From positions 33,746 to 97,745 of the IMG/VR virus record IMGVR_UViG_3300029882_000009: a DNA stretch of 64,000 nt; one strand, written 5' to 3'. Positions within the stretch are counted from its first letter, which is position 1, and each line of letters opens with the position of its first letter. Below are positions 10,729-64,000 of this stretch, piece after piece. Under the pieces are notes generated by a model, which saw only the letters and a program-made list of their open reading frames with translations, was not told the DNA's origin and did not search any database. The position numbers and the translations under genes are program-made. The DNA is from a virus.

Positions 10729-13700
10729 TTATGTTACCGCAATCGCATTGTAATGATTAAGTATGGCACCCGCCGACAATGGATAGTTGTAGATCGCAAG
10801 ATTATTATATTGAGAATCAGTAAAACCATCTGCTGTTGGGTATCCTCCACCACTCCCTTGTACATACCCAAGCGAAAATAAATTAGATCCCACAAGTGGT
10901 GTCCCGGACGGTATAAAAGATTGAATAAGAACTCCGTTTAAATATACTGCTAGATTTACACCGTCCCAAGTCATAACAATATGCGCCAGTGTATTGAAGG
11001 GTCGCGGGGTATAACTTGTAGTGTATGTCCCTCCTGTGAATGCCATGCCGATTATTAACTCAGTTGGGACGCCGTAAATCGCGTTGGCTGTATCGGTATT
11101 ACAGTTAAACATAATTCCGGAGGTTAAACTACTCCATTGCGTTGTTGTTCCTGCAAAACCGAGGCCGTTGTCTATGCTTGGGAGATTACACAAGAACTCT
11201 ATCGTGAATTGTGGCAGACTCTCTGGTTGTACAGTCGTTTGAATACCAGGCGTTGTAGACGAGCCCGACTGCATCCCAAATGGCTGATCAGCACATAATG
11301 AAGATCCAGAAATCACCACCCCAGTGTATGCGCCAGTATACGTCGATCCTATAATTAGATTTTGTGCCGTCTCATCATTTACAGCGTCACTTAAAGGCCA
11401 GAGAGCAAGAGGTTTAGAATTTAGTTGTTGTTGCGTAAATCCACCACGTTCTTGAGAGAACAACAAGAATCCTGTATATTCATCATACATAGTAGCAGTT
11501 TTAACATCTTGGCGTTCTCCAACACGTACAATTCTTTGAACATAAGACCATTGATCAGACCCTTGAACCCCAACTCTGGGGTTAAAATACTTGATGATTT
11601 GACCAGGCTCAATTATCGGAATACTTGCGGTTTTTTGATAAACCGGATTACGCTGCCAAGCGTTCATATTCATAAACCATTGACCAGTTTCAGTACACTG
11701 ATCTAATGTACCAAGCAACGGGTTATTTATTTCTTCATTTTTAATACCGTATAGTAATTGATTTGGTGAATATGCACCTGTCACATCCACTGTTGGGGGT
11801 GTTGGTGTGATTTCTGTGTCACCACAATTTATGACTGCCCCCGTTGCTTCGATACCTTGGGGATCGTAGACCTCTATGGCAGAAATCATTGCATTTCCGT
11901 ATTGTTGACCTGATGGGGTTCCACTCGGAGGTGACACATTTTGAAAAGTGATAATTATATTCCCAGACGCATCACATCCAATACCTTCATAAGTTTTAGT
12001 TGAGGCTACTAATGATCCGTTCGCGTTTGCCCATGTATCAAAATTTTCATCTATGAATCCGTTGTTGAATATAATGTTAAATACACGAAAACCAGGACCA
12101 GATGTTGGCAAATTAGGAGCCGCTGGGGGAATTGTGTTTGGTGGGACTATTGTTGGATCACCATAACTGAGTATTACTGTATAGCCACGACCGAACTGTA
12201 ACCCACCAATTGTATAAGTGAACGAATCGCCCGTAGCATTCGTGGTTGTATAACGAGATGTTTGGAATATTTCTTGTGGGGCAGGTACTGTTAAATAGGT
12301 TAAGTCAAATGTTTCACCATCTGGATAACCTGCTTCTTCTACAGTTTTTGAAGTTCCACCAGACGATGTATACCCAGGTGGTTGATTGTTTGGAAACGCT
12401 GGGGCATCTGGGATTCCTTCGACTTCGTTGGATGCAGTTCCAGCTATTGCTCCATAATATGGCACTATATAATAATAATACGGAGTTCCATTTATCAATC
12501 CTGTATCGCTATAAGCGGTTCCTGTTAGCCCCGAAACAAGTAATGTTTCGCCCCCAGAAGTTAACCCTCGATATAGGCTATATGAGGTAGCTCCATGAGC
12601 ATCTACTGTCCATGCAAGATCTACACCCCCACTTGGTTGAGAAGTCAAGCTTAAAATTACTGGTGGGGGGTTGTCCGAACCATAATCTTTATAGGTCATA
12701 TCGTAAAAAACGATTTGGCCCTGTTCGTAAGCAATCTGCGCAAGTTGAGATATATATAATCCATCAGCGGAAATAACCAGTGTCATTGGGGTTACTTCTT
12801 CCCCGGCTAGATGGCTATATTGTAATGAGTTCTGAAGAGCAAAAGTAGTTCCTGTTATTTTGCGAATTATTGCATATTCTCTGGTTTTGCCAGTACCAAT
12901 AGCAATTACGTTCATTGTTGCAATACTTGGTGGTGAACCAGGAGTTGTGTAACCAGACGCACTCACTACTTGAATAGTTTGAGGGGTGGGTGGAATTGTT
13001 GTCGCAACCGGAGACACATTGCTTGATAGTGTTGTGGGAGATGGAAGGGATGATAAATTCACATAAACTTCTACGGGTGTACCCATACCTAATGGTTGAA
13101 GGGATGTAGAGTCTTCTGGATTAAGCACTTGGTAAGTCCGATGATCCCCAAAAACATCAATAGCGGTTGCCAAAGAAAATGAAATGGAATTGTAATCAGT
13201 GATCTTTGTAAGTGTAGCGTTAGTGCTTGCAACTGGTTGACCATAAATGTCAATATCAAAATCCCAACCATTGTTGTCTGAGTTGGCGTAACCAAAGAAT
13301 GGCAAATCTTGCCATACAGTTAATCCAGTCGCCGGGGAGAGAGCAGCTACCAACAGAAACAACATCCCCATATCGTGACCATTGTCATCAGTGGCTATGA
13401 CACCGGGATATGGACCGGTATCATTATTATGCCCATTACTCTCCCACGGCCCCATAGGAACAGGTGTTCCATCAGGAGTAATAGCTGTCGGGTCAGCACA
13501 TAGTGTTTTAAGATTATCGGGACTTCCAGATACATCACCACCGGAAGAATTGTGAAAATTCGGACAATAAACAACTGCGTAAACGCCGGTAGCAGTCAAC
13601 AAATTTTGAGATTGGCTATTCTGCGTCAACGGAACAAGATAACTCGCCCCTTTACCTGTAGAAATACTATTCAGAGTATTGGCATTACCTAACGATGTAA

Positions 13701-46274: not shown

Positions 46275-46614
46275 TAACCCTATCGAGAGTTTATTATCGA
46301 TAGGGTTGGAAGTCTCCGGTCAATCCTCTTCGGCCACCTAGTTTTTAGGAACTCAAACCTTACGGTGAATTTCCCCGCTCCGGCCTTTCGGCAACGCTTA
46401 CGCGCTTCAGATACCCGCAACCACCACGATGCAAGTCGTGTTCGTCTCCCGGCTAGGGTAATCAACCCCACTTTAGCCTACATATGCACCTGACGCATAA
46501 CGTCAGCCTTCGACTAAGCAGGGTTGTAAATAACCAGCGCATACTAAAGTATTTGGTACTTCCTTCTTTGGTTGTACTTCCCATCGAAGAATAAATAGGC
46601 ATAGGCGCTGGCCT
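46264..46614 (-). ncRNA. Candidate structured non-coding RNA, about 350 nt
   Basis: It has its own extended -10 promoter (46622-46630) and ends in an 11-bp hairpin with a short U-tract. No convincing ORF lies in it. The minus-strand RNA has many local helices: CCAGCGC pairs with GCGCTGG; CTGACG-ttatg-CGTCAG; GGCTA...TAGCC enclosing GGG...CCC; CACGA-cttgca-TCGTG; GCC-gaaa-GGC; CCTA-aaaac-TAGG. It lies between two protein genes in the late block and is not the 5' leader of either. tmRNA, RNase P and group I/II core motifs were not found. A phage-specific large RNA or a stand-alone OMEGA/HEARO-like RNA remains possible but unproven. Confidence 0.65.
46266..46307 (-). terminator. Rho-independent terminator of the structured RNA
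   Basis: Minus strand: AACCCTATCGA, 10-nt loop, TCGATAGGGTT (11 bp, perfect; 46276-46307), then ATTGC and five U (46266-46270). Confidence 0.65.
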
Positions 46615-47784: not shown

Positions 47785-48363
47785 TTATTCTTCTATATCC
47801 CTAAATTGTTTAATCGACATCACTACTCTACCTATCAAGAAAAAATCAGATTCTTGATGATATATTTTAATAGCTGGATCGTCATAACCGATAGCGGTAA
47901 CAACAGCAATATCTCCGTTTTTGGCAATTTGTTGACGCCGAGCAATTACTGTATCCCCGTCCATGATTCCAAAGTTACGCATCGAATCACCTTTGGCAGT
48001 AATGGCAAACAAGTCTCTACCGCTCTGACTCTGATCCACTGGGGGAAGTAGGGAAAGTGGGATCGCTATGGGATCGGTGGAATCTGGTAAATAAGATACC
48101 GCTGGGGAACATGTCATAGGGAGTGAAGTATCACGCTCCAAGATTTCCATTCCGTACTTGTATCTGGATCTTTTTATGTAGCCTTTTAACTCTAGCGAAT
48201 CAAGACATTTAGTTGTGGCGATAAAAGACTTTATGCCGGTTGCTTTACCAATCTCTTGAATGGTCGGCATTTTTTTGCTTGACATGATCTGACTACGGAC
48301 AAAAGCAAGAATCTCTTGTTCCTTTTCTTCATACTCTTGCAATGTATGTCTTCCAGGTTTCAT
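47785..48363 (-). CDS. LexA/CI-like S24 repressor
   Basis: 192 aa. The N-terminal winged HTH (QEILAFVRSQIMSSKKMPTI, IGKATGIKSFIATTKCLDSL, ELKGYIKR) has the layout of LexA. The C-terminal S24 domain has catalytic S127 in AKGDSMRNFGIMDGDTVI and K166 in DDPAIKIYH, as in LexA autoproteases. No Ala-Gly or Cys-Gly cleavage pair is visible in the linker (IPLSLLPPVDQSQSGRD), so self-cleavage may use another site or be lost. It likely represses the rightward promoter at 49.1 kb, whose spacer holds a palindrome. It is convergent in direction with the late block. Confidence 0.85.
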   Translation of the reverse strand: MKPGRHTLQEYEEKEQEILAFVRSQIMSSKKMPTIQEIGKATGIKSFIATTKCLDSLELKGYIKRSRYKYGMEILERDTSLPMTCSPAVSYLPDSTDPIAIPLSLLPPVDQSQSGRDLFAITAKGDSMRNFGIMDGDTVIARRQQIAKNGDIAVVTAIGYDDPAIKIYHQESDFFLIGRVVMSIKQFRDIEE

Positions 48364-49108: not shown

Positions 49109-49137
49109 TTGACATGTACGGTACACTCTGGTAATAT
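49109..49137 (+). promoter_or_regulatory. Main rightward early promoter with palindromic spacer
   Basis: TTGACA (49109-49114), 17 nt, TAATAT (49132-49137) with TG before the -10. The spacer begins TGTACGGTACA, an 11-bp palindrome, exactly where a repressor would block RNA polymerase. The S24 protein encoded to the left is the obvious candidate. Confidence 0.85.
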
Positions 49138-49566
49138 ATAGTCACAGTACATTACAGTAAGGAATTGAATTAATCGGAGCGGTTACGCTGGCGGAGCATG
49201 GATCTAACAGCGTTTTTAGAAAATAGGGATTTATAAGCAACACACACATTTTGACTTTCACCAGTCACCAGTCACGTACTAGTTACCACGAAAATTGTAA
49301 CTTGCGCTAATCGGGTAGGCGCATAAAAATGAAAACGGGTTTAAGGCGCAGCAGGGACTATCGCGACGGTCGAGTCCAGTGTAGCGCATTGCCGTACAGT
49401 ATCCAACAAATAGGTTTTACAATCCTCATAGCTTAGTAAGTGCATAGTATTAGTCACAGTAGAATAACGTAGACTTGCACAATAACAGCACCTATCACAA
49501 ATTTTGTGACTGCATAGGTATCTAGCAAGTACCTATTAAGATGCAAAATGCGTAAAGGAGAAAACA

Positions 49567-49743
49567 ATGATTCAATATTTTGTTCTGACACATGGGACAT
49601 TAGATAATGGTTCTATACTAAGTACTAAACATGGCAAGATAAAAACCTTCTGCTCCCCAATTGCTGCTATACGCTGCATACGACGGGAAGGTAAACATAT
49701 AGATACGTCTAACTGGCGTGTTTATATAGTTACTCCAAACTAA
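49567..49743 (+). CDS. hypothetical protein, 58 aa
   Basis: First rightward early gene. AAAGGAG lies seven bases before the ATG. Product: MIQYFVLTHGTLDNGSILST followed by a basic region (AAIRCIRREGKHIDTSNWRV). It is a small alpha/beta protein of unknown role, possibly an early host-takeover factor by position. Confidence 0.65.
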   Translation: MIQYFVLTHGTLDNGSILSTKHGKIKTFCSPIAAIRCIRREGKHIDTSNWRVYIVTPN

Positions 49744-49754
49744 TTTTGTAACTC

Positions 49755-49778
49755 AGTTACAGAGTAAAATCTGTGACT
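49755..49778 (+). promoter_or_regulatory. Intergenic hairpin element copy 1
   Basis: AGTTACAGA - gtaaaa - TCTGTGACT (9 bp with one T-G pair), flanked by GTAACTC on the left and TATGATAC on the right. Those flanks can form a second helix. It lies between a stop and a ribosome site. It shares flanks and position with the YTAAYCA-loop hairpins but has a different loop. Confidence 0.6.
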
Positions 49779-49805
49779 TATGATACAAAACTAAAGGAGC
49801 AAGAA

Positions 49806-50039
49806 ATGGTCAAAACAATTGCAAAACTGTACGAAGGTAATCGCTGCCACGGAACGTTGGAAAGCGCAAAGGAATTAACAACAACAGAACAAAGGGAATA
49901 TGCACGTATTACATTGGCTGCATTCACCTATTTAACATGCGTACAATTCCGTGTGCCGAGATCGACTTTTAGCAACGATTTTACACGCTCAGATTTTTCC
50001 GGACATGTTAGGGATTTGACTAATATAGTAATTTTGTAA
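49806..50039 (+). CDS. hypothetical protein, 77 aa
   Basis: ATG 49806 is preferred to 49773 because AAAGGAG lies six to seven bases upstream and the earlier ATG lies inside the hairpin element. Helical, charged first half (SAKELTTTEQREYARITLAA) and RVPRSTFSNDFTRSDFSGHV. Unknown function. Confidence 0.65.
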   Translation: MVKTIAKLYEGNRCHGTLESAKELTTTEQREYARITLAAFTYLTCVQFRVPRSTFSNDFTRSDFSGHVRDLTNIVIL

Positions 50040-50042
50040 CTC

Positions 50043-50067
50043 ATAGGCTGGCTAATCACCAGCCTAT
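50043..50067 (+). promoter_or_regulatory. Intergenic hairpin element copy 2
   Basis: ATAGGCTGG - CTAATCA - CCAGCCTAT (9 bp), flanked by GTAACTC and CATGATAC. The second helix GTAxC/GxTAC is possible. It lies between the stop at 50039 and the next gene's ribosome site. Confidence 0.75.
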
Positions 50068-50100
50068 CATGATACAAAACTAAGTATCAAGGAGAATCAT

Positions 50101-50352
50101 ATGGTCCGAACAATATCGGTGAAATTTGACATGGCGAATATGAACATGTCCCGAATGATGGATTTTGAGAAGGAAGTATTGTCACTCAACAATTCTCAAA
50201 ACGAGCTATGTACCAGTCACGAAGTTGGATTTACGGCAGATCATGATGTAGTAATAATCTACTTTGTGTCAGACCTTCACACCATCAAGGCAATTAACCT
50301 TGCAATCAAAAAGTATGAGGGTATTAAAATGTCGGACAAATCTAGCTACTGA
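50101..50352 (+). CDS. hypothetical protein, 83 aa
   Basis: CAAGGAG lies eight bases before ATG. The protein starts with a Met-rich stretch (MANMNMSRMMDFEKEVLSLN) and ends with a beta-helix unit (HDVVIIYFVSDLHTIKAINL). Unknown function. Confidence 0.65.
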   Translation: MVRTISVKFDMANMNMSRMMDFEKEVLSLNNSQNELCTSHEVGFTADHDVVIIYFVSDLHTIKAINLAIKKYEGIKMSDKSSY

Positions 50353-50401
50353 AAATATAGGTACACAAATTTGGGCAAAGTATCCAAAATTAATGTATAC
50401 G

Positions 50402-50467
50402 CATAGGCATAGGCATAGGCATAGGCATAGGCATAGGCATAGGCATAGGCATAGGCATAGGCATAGG
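50402..50467 (+). repeat. Hexanucleotide tandem repeat (CATAGG) x 11
   Basis: Eleven perfect copies of CATAGG, directly followed by AGAATGTAATG, so the last repeat supplies the AGGAG of the next gene's ribosome site. The tract lies in a leader, not in a convincing coding frame. Copy number may change by slippage without affecting any frame, but it could alter spacing or structure around the ribosome site. Confidence 0.95.
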
Positions 50468-50475
50468 AGAATGTA

Positions 50476-50601
50476 ATGGACTCAATATTATCAGGATTTT
50501 TAGGAATGTTCGCTGGTGTAGTATTTATAATAATATTCCCAGTCGGATCAATTGTGGAATTTGTAATAAAATTACCATATATGTTATTCAGGAGAAAATA
50601 A
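50476..50601 (+). CDS. 41-aa membrane protein
   Basis: ATG 50476 after AGGAGAATGTA. A strongly hydrophobic helix (LGMFAGVVFIIIFPVGSIVE, FVIKL) and a basic end (LFRRK). The stop overlaps the next ATG (TAATG). Expression would depend on a ribosome site built from the CATAGG tract. Confidence 0.55.
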   Translation: MDSILSGFLGMFAGVVFIIIFPVGSIVEFVIKLPYMLFRRK

Positions 50602-50672
50602 TGAAAATTGAATATCTGGCACTTGTCGGCTTTCCCATGTTTGTATTAATATGGGTGCATATTGTCAATTGA
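50601..50672 (+). CDS. 23-aa membrane peptide
   Basis: Starts in the TAATG overlap with the previous gene; CAGGAGAA lies upstream. MKIEYLALVGFPMFVLIWVH then IVN is a single hydrophobic helix. Tiny, but coupled and preceded by a good ribosome site. Confidence 0.4.
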   Translation: MKIEYLALVGFPMFVLIWVHIVN

Positions 50673-50678
50673 TAACAG

Positions 50679-50707
50679 TATGTATTGATCTAATCAGTCA
50701 ATACATA
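50679..50707 (+). promoter_or_regulatory. Intergenic hairpin element copy 3
   Basis: TATGTATTGA - TCTAATCAG - TCAATACATA; with a T-G closing pair the loop is CTAATCA. The flanks AACAG and ATGATGTT allow an outer helix AACA/TGTT, which replaces the GTAxC/GxTAC helix of copies 1, 2 and 5. Confidence 0.75.
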
Positions 50708-50744
50708 ATGATGTTAATTACCATGCAAAATAGTTGGCATTAGA

Positions 50745-50870
50745 ATGGACGCTAAAATGAAAACTGGAACCTTATATATTCTAGAATATATAACACTAAG
50801 AACGTTTGAAATAACATGTAACAATATTGTTTTTGTAGATTACATATTGATAAAATCACACCAATTATAA
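50745..50870 (+). CDS. possible 41-aa protein
   Basis: Open frame MDAKMKTGTLYILEYITLRT... ending before the ribosome site of the pentapeptide gene. No clear ribosome site precedes it. It fills an otherwise empty 180-nt gap after hairpin copy 3. Weakly supported. Confidence 0.25.
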   Translation: MDAKMKTGTLYILEYITLRTFEITCNNIVFVDYILIKSHQL

Positions 50871-50884
50871 AGGAGAATACGAAT

Positions 50885-52138
50885 ATGAACATGACAACTG
50901 AAGAATTGGCACTAAAACTAACACTGCATCTAAAATGGCTAAATGGCGATTGTGATGGAGTTAGGCTTAATCTACGCAATGCCGATCTAAACAATGCCAA
51001 TCTACGCTTTGCCGATCTAAACAATGCCGATCTACGCAATGCCGATCTACGCTTTGCCGATCTAAACAATGCCGATCTACGCAATGCCGATCTAAACAAT
51101 GCCGATCTACGCTTTGCCGATCTAAACAATGCCGATCTAAGCAATGCCGATCTACGCTTTGCCTATCTAAGCAATGCCGATCTAAACAATGCCAATCTAA
51201 GCAATGCCGATCTAAGCAATGCCGATCTAAGCAATGCCGATCTAAGCAATGCCGATCTAAGCAATGCCGATCTACGCAATGCCATAACTACAGATACTAT
51301 TCTGGGGGTTAAGGAGGAAGTTAAAATATTAATGAATTCTAAAAATCGAACATTTGGTATCGAGATCGAAATTAACGATCTTGATGAATATGAAGCAGCG
51401 GATGTTTTGCAGTTTGCTGGCATTAACGCCAAAAAAGAAGACTATAATCACAAACTTCGCACACACTGGAAATGTACAACCGATTCAACGGTTGATGGAT
51501 GTGAAGTGGTATCGCCTCCTCTGACAATTGATAATATAGAAGAGGTACGTACTGTAATATCGGCATTGGAGAATGCTGGTGCCACTGTCAATTACAAATG
51601 TGGTTTACATGTCCATTGGGCAGCATCTGACTTGACACTTCTACAATTTAAAAGAATATGTAAAGGTTATATTAGAGCACAGCCCCTTGTGAATATCTTG
51701 CTAGAGCCACCACGACGAATGAATCGTAACAGTTATCTACATGACAACCCTCCTGATTTTTGCGATATTGATAGAGCCGAAAGTCAATCAGATTTGTCAT
51801 ATATTGTATGTTGTAACGATAGATACCGCAAATTAAATCTCGAGTCTTTACAGGTGCATGGAACCATTGAATTCCGTGCATATCATGGGACATTGGATGC
51901 ACAAGAAGTGATTGACTGGATTTATTTAACTAAATCTATAGTCGAACATTCGATATCGCAATCCAATATCAAACCACTGGATACTCTTCTGGCCAAACTT
52001 GGAGAACGATCAACACTTCACACTTGGCTATCGCCTCAGTATTTAGGGCTTGATAAAAATATGCAATCTCGTTTTATGCAAAGGTATGAAGATTTGAAAA
52101 TAATGGAGGCTGAATATTGTTCAAGATCAAGGTGGTAG
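50885..52138 (+). CDS. Pentapeptide-repeat / amidoligase fusion
   Basis: 417 aa. Residues about 27-135 are about 21 tandem pentapeptide repeats (A(D/N)L(N/R/S)(N/F)), encoded by nearly identical 15-nt units, a sign of recent expansion. From about 150 the protein is an amidoligase of the COOH-NH2 ligase family: FGIEIEINDLDEYEAADVLQ, DGCEVVSPPLTI, KCGLHVHW and IEFRAYHGTLDAQEVIDWIY, with Glu and His/Arg residues of an ATP-grasp/glutamine-synthetase-like site. These enzymes join amines to carboxylates and in known operons pair with gamma-glutamylcyclotransferases, as here. The N-terminal beta-helix may bind the substrate or mimic DNA. Confidence 0.85.
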   Translation: MNMTTEELALKLTLHLKWLNGDCDGVRLNLRNADLNNANLRFADLNNADLRNADLRFADLNNADLRNADLNNADLRFADLNNADLSNADLRFAYLSNADLNNANLSNADLSNADLSNADLSNADLSNADLRNAITTDTILGVKEEVKILMNSKNRTFGIEIEINDLDEYEAADVLQFAGINAKKEDYNHKLRTHWKCTTDSTVDGCEVVSPPLTIDNIEEVRTVISALENAGATVNYKCGLHVHWAASDLTLLQFKRICKGYIRAQPLVNILLEPPRRMNRNSYLHDNPPDFCDIDRAESQSDLSYIVCCNDRYRKLNLESLQVHGTIEFRAYHGTLDAQEVIDWIYLTKSIVEHSISQSNIKPLDTLLAKLGERSTLHTWLSPQYLGLDKNMQSRFMQRYEDLKIMEAEYCSRSRW

Positions 52139-52416
52139 GTTTAGGTGGTAATAACATCATATACGCAAATAGTGTTACAGATATGTTTCATCAATTGCGT
52201 AAATGTTCTCGTACAAGAACAAAATCAGATAGTGTATTCCGCCGTGAATATGCGAGACGGGTGGAATGGTTTTATCCGAATGTGGAGTTGCACCCGCAAA
52301 ATGCGGATATTCTGTTCCGAGAATTACAGGAACTTGGAGTAATACAAGATATAACAACGTCAAAATTACTTCGTGATGCGATTAACAAAGTAGGAAACAA
52401 TTTTAAAATAGATTAA
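52117..52416 (+). CDS. hypothetical protein, 99 aa, TTG start
   Basis: TTG 52117 follows GGAGG at 7-nt spacing and overlaps the end of the amidoligase gene by 22 bases. MFKIKVVGLGGNNIIYANSV looks like a beta start. Basic centre (LRKCSRTRTKSDSVFRREYA) and helical end. It probably works with the amidoligase, from coupling. No family was recognised. Confidence 0.65.
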   Translation: MFKIKVVGLGGNNIIYANSVTDMFHQLRKCSRTRTKSDSVFRREYARRVEWFYPNVELHPQNADILFRELQELGVIQDITTSKLLRDAINKVGNNFKID

Positions 52417-52423
52417 CAACACC

Positions 52424-52450
52424 ATACGCACATTTAACCAGTGTGCGTAT
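52424..52450 (+). promoter_or_regulatory. Intergenic hairpin element copy 4
   Basis: ATACGCACA - TTTAACCAG - TGTGCGTAT; with a T-G closing pair the loop is TTAACCA. The flanks AACACC and CATGATGTT give the AACA/TGTT outer helix. Between the stop at 52416 and the ribosome site of the next gene. Confidence 0.7.
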
Positions 52451-52486
52451 CATGATGTTAATTTTAATGTCACACAGGGAGAATAT

Positions 52487-52987
52487 ATGAATTTAGATAT
52501 AACTGAAGAAGAACGTACATCACTGCTTAGGGCACTATCGTACCAGCATTTTACGGATTGTATGGAACTATACGATAAAATCAGGGATATTCAACCTGAT
52601 ATACTCTTATTTGTATATGGAACTCTAAAACGAGGACATGGAAACCACCATTTATTGCAATATTCAAAATTTATTGCAGAAGTAGAAACTGAGCCAGAAT
52701 TCAGATTGTATTCTGGAGGTATTCCCTACCTTATACATGATCCTAAACACGGTTACAGTGTCAGTGGCGAACTCTATAAAGTGGATTACCATACCCTCAT
52801 GCGTGTTGACCGGTTAGAAGGACATCCAGACCATTACAAACGGACCAAAATTGAAATAGGCAACATTCAGTGTGAGACATATATCTATACTCGCAACATC
52901 AAAAACACCGAAGAATTGACAAATGGAGAATATACACATGCTTTATCTGGCTTATGGATCAAATCTCAGTATCGATCAAATGAATAG
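52487..52987 (+). CDS. Gamma-glutamylcyclotransferase-like protein 1 (AIG2/GGCT fold)
   Basis: 166 aa with a short helical N-terminal extension. DILLFVYGTLKRGHGNHHLL is the GGCT nucleotide-like loop (YGTLxxGxxN), and VDRLEGHPDHYKRT carries the catalytic Glu (E111). GGCT enzymes cyclise gamma-glutamyl amines to 5-oxoproline. With the upstream amidoligase this suggests making and removing a gamma-glutamyl-type amide. AGGGAGAA precedes the ATG. Confidence 0.85.
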   Translation: MNLDITEEERTSLLRALSYQHFTDCMELYDKIRDIQPDILLFVYGTLKRGHGNHHLLQYSKFIAEVETEPEFRLYSGGIPYLIHDPKHGYSVSGELYKVDYHTLMRVDRLEGHPDHYKRTKIEIGNIQCETYIYTRNIKNTEELTNGEYTHALSGLWIKSQYRSNE

Positions 52988-53582
52988 ACGCTGCCCTTAT
53001 GCTGATCTTGTTGACTCTTACATCCTACCTGATTTTGAATTAGTCTTTTGTGATGTAGCAACAATTCGACCAGCAGCTGGCAAACAGACATTATGCGCCC
53101 TTTACGATATCACAATCTTCTGTAAAGAGATTCTGGACATATATGAAGGAGTAGAAACTGGAAAATATAAAGTCTATACAACTATAACCCAATATGGTAA
53201 GGCTATTGTATATGCTATGCCGAACCTAAAACAAGTGCTAGAAGCCCCTACTGAGTGGTACGCTGACAAAATACGACAGGGTTATCGTGACTGGTGTTTA
53301 GATCTTGACCATTTAGAATCAATCATCTCGACCATGCCGGAACGCAACAAATGGAATAAATGGGACAATTTTGATTGGAACAAAGATTATTACACTCAAT
53401 ACGGCGATGGAGGAAAATGTTTGTCACGATATCCAGACCATAAAGCGACAAAAGAATCATTCTCAAAAGAACCAGTAAAAGCATTTAAGGCAAACAAAAC
53501 TAATTATCAGAACATAAGCACTGATAAAGATCGTATTGAAACGATGGAGTGGAATAAGAAATGGGCATTGAAGGAAGGATAG
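52938..53582 (+). CDS. Gamma-glutamylcyclotransferase-like protein 2
   Basis: The start is ATG 52938, which places YLAYGSNLS at the N terminus as in GGCT family members; GGAGAA lies upstream. LDIYEGVETGKYKVYT carries catalytic E70. The C-terminal about 90 residues are Lys/Trp-rich and specific to this protein. It overlaps GGCT-like 1 by 50 bases. Two GGCT paralogues after one amidoligase suggest two different amide substrates or a forward/back pair. Confidence 0.82.
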   Translation: MLYLAYGSNLSIDQMNRRCPYADLVDSYILPDFELVFCDVATIRPAAGKQTLCALYDITIFCKEILDIYEGVETGKYKVYTTITQYGKAIVYAMPNLKQVLEAPTEWYADKIRQGYRDWCLDLDHLESIISTMPERNKWNKWDNFDWNKDYYTQYGDGGKCLSRYPDHKATKESFSKEPVKAFKANKTNYQNISTDKDRIETMEWNKKWALKEG

Positions 53583-53605
53583 GTTAAAACATAGGTTAGT
53601 AACTC

Positions 53606-53630
53606 ATGCTGGCGCTAATCACGCCAGCAT
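53606..53630 (+). promoter_or_regulatory. Intergenic hairpin element copy 5
   Basis: ATGCTGGCG - CTAATCA - CGCCAGCAT (9 bp, perfect), flanked by GTAACTC and CATGATAC as in copy 2. It lies between the GGCT-like 2 stop and the next gene. The stem differs from copy 2 at paired positions, so structure is conserved over sequence. Confidence 0.75.
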
Positions 53631-53657
53631 CATGATACTAATCAATAAAGGGAATAT

Positions 53658-54014
53658 ATGAGAAAAACAAAAGAGAAGTTCCATAACTTCTATTCGTATA
53701 GTAAACAATGTCGTAAAACCGCTTATGATACCCCAGAATATCTAAACGAGAACGATAAGGTTACGCTGACAGAATTAATACACTGTCTACAAACTAATGA
53801 TATATCTAGATTTCATGCGCTTGCGCGCGGGAATAATAATCAAGGTTTGTTTTGGAGAATATTAGGCTGGCCAGAAGGTCTTAATTATTGTTACGATTAT
53901 GAATTTTGCGTATTAAGTGCAATGCCGGGGTTGATACGGCACGAATTGCCAAAATTACTAGCTGGTGTACCAGTATATACTAATCAAGGAGAAAATTATG
54001 ACTACACTATTTGA
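53658..54014 (+). CDS. hypothetical protein, 118 aa
   Basis: AAAGGGAA precedes the ATG. Basic, aromatic start (KEKFHNFYSYSKQCRKTAYD), a helical middle (DKVTLTELIHCLQTNDISRF) and LFWRILGWPEGLNYCYDYEF. No family was recognised. The 3' end overlaps the next gene. Confidence 0.6.
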   Translation: MRKTKEKFHNFYSYSKQCRKTAYDTPEYLNENDKVTLTELIHCLQTNDISRFHALARGNNNQGLFWRILGWPEGLNYCYDYEFCVLSAMPGLIRHELPKLLAGVPVYTNQGENYDYTI

Positions 54015-54219
54015 GTTTCCCACCAGACAAATAGCTAACAAGTTCTATGATGAAATTGTTAATGATGGAATATTTGATAGGATAGCATCTATGGACTCCA
54101 AAGTAACAATAATTGCAGTTAACGACGAGCAAATAGAACGTATGGCCAAATACAAATCGCTTGCGTCAAGATACTACAATGCTTCATTTAAAGAAGTAAC
54201 AATCGTAATAGGAGTATAA
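53998..54219 (+). CDS. hypothetical protein, 73 aa
   Basis: ATG 53998 has CAAGGAGAAAATT upstream; the longer frame from 53965 lacks a site. Beta-helix-beta pattern (TTLFEFPTRQIANKFYDEIV, KVTIIAVNDEQIERMAKY), with an RRM-like ferredoxin layout possible. Unknown function. Confidence 0.6.
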   Translation: MTTLFEFPTRQIANKFYDEIVNDGIFDRIASMDSKVTIIAVNDEQIERMAKYKSLASRYYNASFKEVTIVIGV

Positions 54220-54312
54220 TTGAATAGTATTACAAAAATCAATGTGATATGTTGTCTTACTGCATTCAGCATGTTCATAATGCTAGCAGTGGCAATATTT
54301 ATTTTTGGATAG
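54220..54312 (+). CDS. 30-aa membrane peptide, TTG start
   Basis: TTG 54220 directly follows the previous stop and has AGGAG five bases upstream. LNSITKINVICCLTAFSMFI then MLAVAIFIFG is one membrane helix. Unknown function. Confidence 0.4.
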   Translation: MNSITKINVICCLTAFSMFIMLAVAIFIFG

Positions 54313-54320
54313 GAGAATAT

Positions 54321-54587
54321 ATGATGCAAGTATTAGGTAAGGATTTGCCGCCTCAACTTCAAAAAGAAGTTTTATCCATGTTTGTACATAGATATACAGG
54401 TATTCACAAACCGGCATGGGTTAAGTCAAATAACCCGGTACAATTTGCCGACGACAAAGACTGGTTGGCACACACGTTGTTCTATGTCACGAAGAAGGGT
54501 CAAATTGCAAACAGGCCAAATCATTGCGAATCAAGTCCGACATGGCCTAACAATCCAGAATTAAGGAAAACATTCAATGCAAGTTAA
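54321..54587 (+). CDS. hypothetical protein, 88 aa
   Basis: ATG 54321 has AGGAGAAT upstream. LPPQLQKEVLSMFVHRYTGI, KPAWVK and DDKDWLAHTLFYVTKKGQIA suggest a small globular protein. It recalls a phage family with a W-L-A-x-TxF-xV motif of unknown function. Confidence 0.6.
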   Translation: MMQVLGKDLPPQLQKEVLSMFVHRYTGIHKPAWVKSNNPVQFADDKDWLAHTLFYVTKKGQIANRPNHCESSPTWPNNPELRKTFNAS

Positions 54588-54987
54588 AGGCTTAGAGTTA
54601 GATAAATTCACAACCGCATATTGTGTTGCAATGTTATGGTCAAGTCAGGATTGGAGTAAAGTAGATAATGTCACAATCCATAATCCCGAACCTATGGATG
54701 CGAATTACTCAATATTAGATATTGAAAAACGCACTTTGAAATTGATCATAAAGGATTGTGCAACATTCCAATCTGCGAATTCTGAAGATTTAGGTGAGTG
54801 TGGAGCTACCTTAGAACAGGCTGGTCATGACTACTGGTTAACTCGTAATCGACACGGAGTGGGCTTCTGGGACCGTTCTGATGACTACTACAGTCAAGAA
54901 CAGAGGGACAGATTAACTCTCGCCAGTCATAAAGCTGACGAACAAGATCCCTATATCTACAGAGGAAAGATAAGGATAGATTACTAA
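54577..54987 (+). CDS. Conserved phage protein (GHDFWLTRNxHGxGFWDR type), 136 aa
   Basis: The segment AGHDYWLTRNRHGVGFWDRS is the hallmark of a widespread phage and plasmid protein family. FTTAYCVAMLWSS and the end DPYIYRGKIRIDY also fit. The biochemical role is unknown. The start overlaps the previous gene by 11 bases. Confidence 0.8.
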   Translation: MQVKGLELDKFTTAYCVAMLWSSQDWSKVDNVTIHNPEPMDANYSILDIEKRTLKLIIKDCATFQSANSEDLGECGATLEQAGHDYWLTRNRHGVGFWDRSDDYYSQEQRDRLTLASHKADEQDPYIYRGKIRIDY

Positions 54988-55282: not shown

Positions 55283-55309
55283 ACCAGCCAGAAATGGCTG
55301 GTCTTTTTT
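55283..55309 (+). terminator. Rho-independent terminator of the early block
   Basis: ACCAGCC, 6-nt loop, GGCTGGT (7 bp) followed by C and six T (55304-55309). It closes the rightward unit that began at 49.1 kb. Confidence 0.88.
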
Positions 55310-57495: not shown

Positions 57496-57524
57496 TTGAC
57501 ATTTTTTGAATCACTCATTATAAT
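57496..57524 (+). promoter_or_regulatory. Consensus rightward promoter beside the iterons
   Basis: TTGACA (57496-57501), 17 nt, TATAAT (57519-57524): both consensus. It serves the gene at 57553, which has AAAGG as ribosome site. The iterons abut its upstream edge, suggesting autoregulation by the encoded protein. Confidence 0.9.
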
Positions 57525-60358: not shown

Positions 60359-60387
60359 TTGACAACTAACTCAATCTACGGTATAAT
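60359..60387 (+). promoter_or_regulatory. Consensus rightward promoter
   Basis: TTGACA (60359-60364), 17 nt, TATAAT (60382-60387). It starts the small-gene group at 60414, which has CGAGGTA as ribosome site. Confidence 0.9.
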
Positions 60388-63326: not shown

Positions 63327-64000
63327 ATGATAAAAATAGAAGAAATCACTCTTTCGAAAGGCAGCCACAAATCTATTGAAGACGGTATGTGTGTTATGGA
63401 AGCTGCATCTTATATTGCAAATGAGCCATATTCAGACCATCCTTCCTGTGTATGTCCGGTAATTGCATCTTTTTGCAGGGTTTGGAATGACAATCTACCA
63501 AACAATGCTGAACGTGATAAGTGGATAAAACCACTATTATCGAAATTGATTGGAACTGTTAACGATAATAAAATACAAAAGCGGGCGTATATTTGTGCGG
63601 ATTTTGCAGTACGGCAATTCGCTGCAGTTGCTTTTGAGTTTGTAAAGTTACCAGAAGAGGCTAAAAAACTACGGGAATTGCCCCCCATAGTTGATGTTGA
63701 GTCGGCAGAGTCGGCACGGTTGGCGGCAGAGTCGGCACGGTCGGCAGTGTCGGCATGGTCGGCACGGTTGGCGGCATGGTCGGCACGGTCGGCACGGTCG
63801 GCAGAGTCGGCACGGTTGGCGGCATGGTCGGCAGAGTCGGCACGGTCGGCAGAGTCGGCACGGTTGGCGGCAGTGTCGGCAGAGTCGGCACGGTTGGCGG
63901 CAGTGTCGGCAGAGTCGGCACGGTCGGCAGAGTCGGCACGGTTGGCGGCATGGTCGGCAGAGTCGGCACGGTCGGCAGAGTCGGCACGGTTGGCGGCATG
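63327..64000 (+). CDS. Conserved phage protein with Ala/Ser-rich repeat tail (partial)
   Basis: ATG 63327 with CGGAG upstream; it runs off the right edge. The first about 120 residues (EEITLSKGSHKSIEDGMCVM, EAASYIANEPYSDHPSCVCP, VIASFCRVWNDNLPNN) match a common phage protein that opens with a Gly-Ser-His then EDGMCVMEA-xY and a C-x-CPVI-xF motif. The rest is a repeat of short units (ESARLAA, WSAESARSA) encoded by GC-rich DNA. In relatives the end is also Ala-rich, but here it is a near-perfect tandem array and its end is not visible. Confidence 0.8.
   Translation, partial: MIKIEEITLSKGSHKSIEDGMCVMEAASYIANEPYSDHPSCVCPVIASFCRVWNDNLPNNAERDKWIKPLLSKLIGTVNDNKIQKRAYICADFAVRQFAAVAFEFVKLPEEAKKLRELPPIVDVESAESARLAAESARSAVSAWSARLAAWSARSARSAESARLAAWSAESARSAESARLAAVSAESARLAAVSAESARSAESARLAAWSAESARSAESARLAA
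63699..64000 (+). repeat. GC-rich short tandem repeat inside the last gene
   Basis: Interleaved units GAGTCGGCA, CGGTCGGCA, CGGTTGGCGGCA and TGGTCGGCA repeat to the window edge, in frame with the gene (S-A, R-S-A, R-L-A-A). Base composition is far more GC-rich than the surrounding 40% or so. The array lacks stop codons on both strands, producing a spurious antisense frame. Confidence 0.92.

Follow-up and report, generated by a model that had tools for sequence, protein, structure and literature searches.

The five hairpins that stand between consecutive genes of a viral genome raise the question of which function could keep a terminal loop and an outer architecture nearly constant while the stems in between are exchanged altogether. 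They lie in a window of 64,000 nt, corresponding to bases 33746-97745 of a 97.7-kb viral record, where they span positions 49744-53643, all on the + strand and all intergenic. A previous sequence-only reading had regarded them as a functional RNA motif of early genes, perhaps a processing site, a protein-binding site or a translation switch. The assignment as a functional motif and as a processing site is supported by the present analysis and can be specified, while a translation switch, for which no evidence was found, and a dedicated RNA-binding protein are unsupported. Judged from sequence likeness and covariance models, the five hairpins are very probably T7-type RNase III processing sites, because they have the same anatomy and the same internal-loop letters as the T7 sites, match these sites in two covariance models (R2 and R3), possess covarying helices and are situated within a putative early unit.

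In each hairpin, an internal loop separates a lower helix (7-9 bp) from an upper one (9-11 bp) that is capped by a terminal loop containing UAA, and all five are found where the sequence-only reading had placed them. Site 1 (49744..49790, +), recognized by its fold and by a structural descriptor, reads TTTTGTA-ACTC-AGTTACAGA-(GTAAAA)-TCTGTGACT-TATGA-TACAAAA with a predicted cut after 49781. Site 2 (50032..50079, +), also recognized by the descriptor, has the same lower helix TTTTGTA/TACAAAA and reads TTTTGTA-ACTC-ATAGGCTGG-(CTAATCA)-CCAGCCTAT-CATGA-TACAAAA with a predicted cut after 50070; when a 59-nt stretch is folded as a single sequence, the lower 3' arm of this site goes preferentially into a competing helix. 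The divergent site 3 (50667..50720, +; AATTGATA-ACAG-TATGTATTGAT-(CTAATCA)-GTCAATACATA-ATGA-TGTTAATT; predicted cut after 50709) can form the lower helix AATTGATA/TGTTAATT, which includes two G-T pairs, or alternatively TAACA/TGTTA. Equally divergent is site 4 (52410..52464, +; ATTAACA-ACACC-ATACGCACA-(TTTAACCAG)-TGTGCGTAT-CATGA-TGTTAAT; predicted cut after 52453) with the lower helix ATTAACA/TGTTAAT. Site 5 (53594..53643, +), identified by its fold and as the top descriptor match, has the lower helix GGTTAGTA/TACTAATC and reads GGTTAGTA-ACTC-ATGCTGGCG-(CTAATCA)-CGCCAGCAT-CATGA-TACTAATC with a predicted cut after 53633.

The internal loop of sites 1, 2 and 5 is asymmetric with four nucleotides (ACUC) on the 5' side and five (YAUGA) on the 3' side. 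Sites 3 and 4 have retained the 3' side only (AUGA and CAUGA), differ on the 5' side (ACAG and ACACC) and possess near-symmetric loops of 4/4, or 5/5 if the last upper pair opens, and of 5/5, respectively. Of the structural features of T7 RNase III sites that were tested, sites 1, 2 and 5 thus display all, and sites 3 and 4 display a part. The terminal loop is CUAAUCA in three copies and UUAACCA in one, as had been noticed previously, and GUAAAA in copy 1, with UAA present in 5/5. The upper stems begin with AG, AT or TA and have no sequence in common. The second, outer helix that had been described to covary as GTAxC/GxTAC or AACA/TGTT is present, and with 7-9 bp it is longer than these motifs suggest; ATGAT, on the other hand, is not a trailing motif, but comprises the 3' side of the internal loop (xATGA) and the first base of the lower helix.

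The + strand gene run that harbours the sites begins near 49567. A scan detected a putative early promoter at 49109..49137 (+; TTGACA-17-TAATAT with TG before the -10 hexamer, 10/12 consensus matches); promoter-like sites overall are no more frequent than in shuffles, so its promoter function is only inferred. A likely terminator at 55283..55302 (+), with an 8 bp GC-rich stem followed by CTTTTTTATC, was recognized by scan and fold. All five sites are located inside this one unit of about 6 kb (~6.2 kb from promoter-like site to terminator), which would be transcribed early. Perfect-consensus promoter-like sites (TTGACA-17-TATAAT) on the + strand at 57496-57524 and 60359-60387 probably start further transcripts. 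The end of the window (63699-63998) is occupied by dense GTCGGCA-type tandem repeats, the - strand frame of which would encode a TVPTLP-rich protein.

According to the open reading frames, the sites fall between genes. The early genes that they separate (49567..54987, +) code for small unknown proteins as judged from open reading frames, Pfam and PHROGs; along the same stretch, Pfam and PHROGs indicate a protein with pentapeptide repeats and Amidoligase_2 (50885-52138, +), a GGACT-family protein (gamma-glutamyl cyclotransferase; 52487-52987, +) and a weak AIG2-like protein (52923-53582, +). In the first of these, the pentapeptide repeats correspond to a 15-bp DNA unit present 21 times and are joined to the putative Amidoligase_2 part. 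The hairpins had been reported to sit between a stop codon and the next ribosome site, and indeed copies 1-4 are at or overlap the upstream stop and copy 5 starts 12 nt after it, whereas the start following site 3 is without a clear ribosome site. Start codons are located 25-36 nt beyond the predicted cuts; for site 3, the nearest start (50745) is that of a doubtful 41-aa open reading frame, followed at 50885 by the first gene that has a clear ribosome site.

By its terminase and the absence of a T7-type RNA polymerase, the phage itself does not look T7-like. The terminase is at best ~37% identical to its counterparts in, for example, Pseudoalteromonas TW1 and Acinetobacter phages, outside the T7 group, and the domain PF00940 was not detected in the 97.7-kb, possibly incomplete record by a search that found it in T7 with an E-value of 9.9e-110. 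The tape measure protein comprises 2027 aa.

That the stems differ completely and nevertheless stay paired, the central claim of the sequence-only reading, holds. When the five copies are aligned by fitting to the model, 100% of the cells are paired compared to 70% in shuffles, changes on both sides have occurred in 12/16 pairs and the covariation score is 0.994 versus 0.31 in shuffles, with 0/500 shuffles reaching 0.994; these counts are not to be read as probabilities, given that the model shaped the alignment and that the copies may have arisen by duplication. Sliding the partner columns by 1-3 positions lets pairing fall to 23-46%, and a MAFFT alignment of copies 1, 2 and 5, which involves no model fit, has 10/16 pairs changed on both sides (0/500 shuffles). 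Compensatory change, one of the two points on which the earlier proposal had staked its validity, therefore far exceeds the shuffle and the sliding controls. Flanks are common to copies 1 and 2 and to copies 3 and 4, so these pairs probably arose by duplication, and as all five copies may descend from one, the agreement of their internal loops with those of T7 might represent few independent events.

The pattern YTAAYCA followed by ATGAT occurs four times in the 97.7-kb record, always on the + strand and always at these sites, while the reversed pattern has 0 occurrences in the whole record. With a descriptor in which the two arms of a lower helix enclose a left loop, an upper helix and xATGA, the five copies take the first five places among the + strand matches of the window with scores of at least 25.5, compared to 0.3 matches per shuffled window at a score of at least 22. 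As this descriptor was written after viewing the window and the T7 sites, the tests with covariance models weigh more.

Model R2 was built from window copies 1, 2 and 5 only, which as members of its training set score 62.0, 70.4 and 68.3 bits, respectively. Searched against the window together with T7 (104 kb), it recovered the held-out copy 4 (33.3 bits, E 4.6e-5) and copy 3 (24.7 bits, E 0.0058) and also T7 R0.3 (23.9 bits, E 0.0087). Across ten phages with a total of 450 kb (T7, T3, SP6, TW1, Ab105-1phi, T1 and lambda as a whole, RSP, S0112 and N4 with their first 50 kb only), the top two matches of the same model were T3 R0.3 (825-872), followed by T7 R0.3, with the next match at E 7.5; in the T3 record, 822-875 bear the annotation 'RNase III recognition site R0.3'. 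Model R3, which combines 13 sites, three from the window and ten from T7, T3 and SP6, recovered the held-out T3 sites R18.5, R1.1 and R6.5 (E 8.9e-9 to 1.8e-7) and T7 R6.5 (E 5.5e-7). The models did not include T7 sites with a different structure, for instance R1, R1.3 and R3.8. Over 47 other large IMG/VR contigs (~5.4 Mb), a non-random sample whose members had entered through unrelated pattern matches, model R3 gave one weak match of 19.5 bits, so the motif is uncommon among the phages of this sample and the models do not match everywhere.

The covariance search that had been suggested for related phages recovered, in place of copies in close relatives, R0.3 of T7 and T3. Only one other contig has the copies, a second contig of the same phage, which was also the only relative identified when IMG/VR was scanned with the terminase; it differs by two missing CATAGG units elsewhere and is, being identical across the sites, uninformative on their evolution. 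The hexamer tandem repeat ATAGGC concerned (~12 units, 50397-50467, just before the open reading frame at 50476) is two units shorter in the second contig, which means that the array varies in length. Loop-specific patterns had two IMG/VR matches, both in the second contig, and two matches in GTDB genomes, both without a stem. The pattern AACA...ATGATGTT gave, among the matches listed, one stem-like locus, which falls within an open frame of 810 codons and is attributed to chance. An Rfam scan of the hairpin region showed nothing at the gathering cut-off; the first 6.8 kb of T7 had no match either, and therefore no Rfam family was seen to cover the early T7 sites. Close to the packaging genes of the window, on the - strand at 46462-46527, a match to the Rfam family DUF3800-VIII RNA (RF03075) was detected with 53.9 bits versus a gathering cut-off of 40.2.

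Several other explanations can be considered for this set of observations. The conserved loop, kept in 4/5 copies and with its UAA in 5/5 though the stems have fully diverged, and absent from the ten T7, T3 and SP6 sites examined, would be expected of binding sites for a phage or host RNA-binding protein, for example an antiterminator or a translational repressor, that reads NUAAYCA while the stem only presents the loop. Such an explanation leaves the ACUC/YAUGA internal loop in common with T7 and T3 unaccounted for, and a scan of early proteins turned up no RNA-binding family, though most of these proteins match no family at all; we consider it improbable. Searching by eye for an antiterminator nut site gave no boxA-like sequence, and a K-turn or box C-D structure was dismissed, as AUGAUG resembles box C, but the opposite strand is without GA. 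Even less can be said for intercistronic protectors of 3' ends that block exonucleases or mark message ends only, without RNase III cleavage: strong folds directly after stop codons agree with this function, which has, however, no need for a conserved asymmetric internal loop or for a lower helix closing the junction, making it quite improbable.

The sites are also inverted repeats and a gene for a LexA-like repressor is located nearby (47785-48363), so that palindromic operators or origin repeats acting as double-stranded DNA might come to mind. With pairing conserved and stem sequence not, with the conserved parts being unpaired and asymmetric, and with all copies on one strand between genes, there is very little room for this view. 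Chance hairpins or recent functionless duplicates, to which the shared flanks of copies 1/2 and 3/4 could point, are hardly conceivable, as the stems have been wholly replaced and still pair, the descriptor finds far fewer matches in shuffled windows and the other IMG/VR stretches with the outer pattern TGTAACTC...YATGATACA have at most three uninterrupted stem pairs. Besides the possible common descent of the copies, the descriptor written with the sites in view and a conserved terminal loop that the enzyme is not known to need, two results count against the assignment as T7-type RNase III sites. The reverse test with model R1, built from T7 sites only, did not find the window copies, because this model is dominated by the T7 AAGG/CCTT stem; and sites 3 and 4 are without ACUC and do not appear among the matches that the joint model R3 gives at E<=1.

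As RNase III processing sites, the hairpins would function in the following way. A single early transcript would start near 49140 and end near 55300, and at the five intercistronic junctions it would fold into two-helix hairpins with the asymmetric ACUC/CAUGA internal loop. An RNase III domain (PF14622) was not found in the record and therefore the host enzyme would cut; it might bind the stacked helices and cleave once within the internal loop, on its 3' side and probably at CAU|GAU, the T7 cleavage bond being UUUAU|GAU. The upstream message would then end in a stable hairpin that guards against exonucleases, and the downstream message would gain a short leader, with 25-36 nt between its new 5' end and the start codon, changes that could affect message stability and translation. 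At sites 2, 3 and 4, the RNA beginning at the predicted cut could open directly with a hairpin, which was considered and rejected as not significant, with at least 5 bp arising in 8-27% of shuffles; more than three such pairs are seen in only one of ten T7, T3 and SP6 sites.

Neither the NUAAYCA loop nor the complete difference between the stems would be expected from T7. To our knowledge, RNase III requires neither a conserved terminal loop nor the AAGG...CCTT stem. Something probably holds the loop sequence, because freely drifting loops should have diverged as the stems did. NUAAYCA has the U-N-R pattern of a U-turn; a convincing complementary hairpin as a kissing partner was not found besides the opposite strands of the sites themselves, nor was a candidate protein for the loop. 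The diversity of the stems may, as a guess, prevent cross-pairing of arms between copies on one transcript. A non-T7 lineage might even have independently evolved or captured T7-type sites and added a NUAAYCA loop read by a trans factor, which would make the sites a place of regulated rather than constitutive cutting, a scenario that we regard as speculative and rather unlikely.

A second set of sites without kinship to T7 would allow the needs of the enzyme and of the phage strategy, such as ACUC/YAUGA and the helix lengths, to be separated from T7 ancestry as reflected in AAGG/CCTT, with five natural variants making the recognition code directly testable. If the assignment is true, phages other than T7-like ones also process their early transcript by intergenic cutting, and model R3 can be used to find further cases. 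A limited literature search found no reports of such sites outside the T7 group.

The T7 sites are textbook natural RNase III substrates with R1.1 as the standard test RNA; their positions were checked against the T7 sequence. T7 R0.3 reads GGATA-ACTC-AAGGGTATC-GCAA-GGTGCCCTT-TATGA-TATTC, R0.5 and R1.1 have ACTC/TATGA, R4.7 has CCTC/CATGA and R18.5 has ACTC/TATGG. These T7 sites are like the window sites in their lower helix, the 4/5-nt loop ACUC/YAUGR and an upper helix of 9-10 bp, and equally in their intergenic location and the stop codon near the lower helix; T7 also resembles the window phage in having five sites in its early unit. R1.1, from between T7 genes 1.0 and 1.1, is 60 nt long and has an asymmetric internal loop of 4/5 nt (PMC6121014); RNase III cuts it at one bond into 47 and 13 nt, while the early T7 precursor of ~7,000 nt is cut at five sites (PMC4858673). 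T7 differs by its AAGG...CCTT stem, also seen in the examined T3 and SP6 sites, whereas the stems of the five window sites lack it and all differ; by varied short terminal loops versus NUAAYCA; and by the single-subunit RNA polymerase of its group (Autographiviridae), which was not found in the record of the window phage. T3 (NC_003298), which differs from the window sites in the same points as T7, has ACTC/TATGA in its annotated R0.3, R0.5 and R4.7, and its R0.3 is the best outside match of the window-only model R2. SP6 (NC_004831), which equally differs by possessing a T7-type RNA polymerase, carries at 12224 and 30550 two strong intergenic candidates for T7-type RNase III sites, unannotated in its record, that resemble the window sites by ACTC/TATGA and by a lower helix overlapping the upstream stop, and in several of the T7, T3 and SP6 sites the stop codon likewise abuts or overlaps the lower helix.
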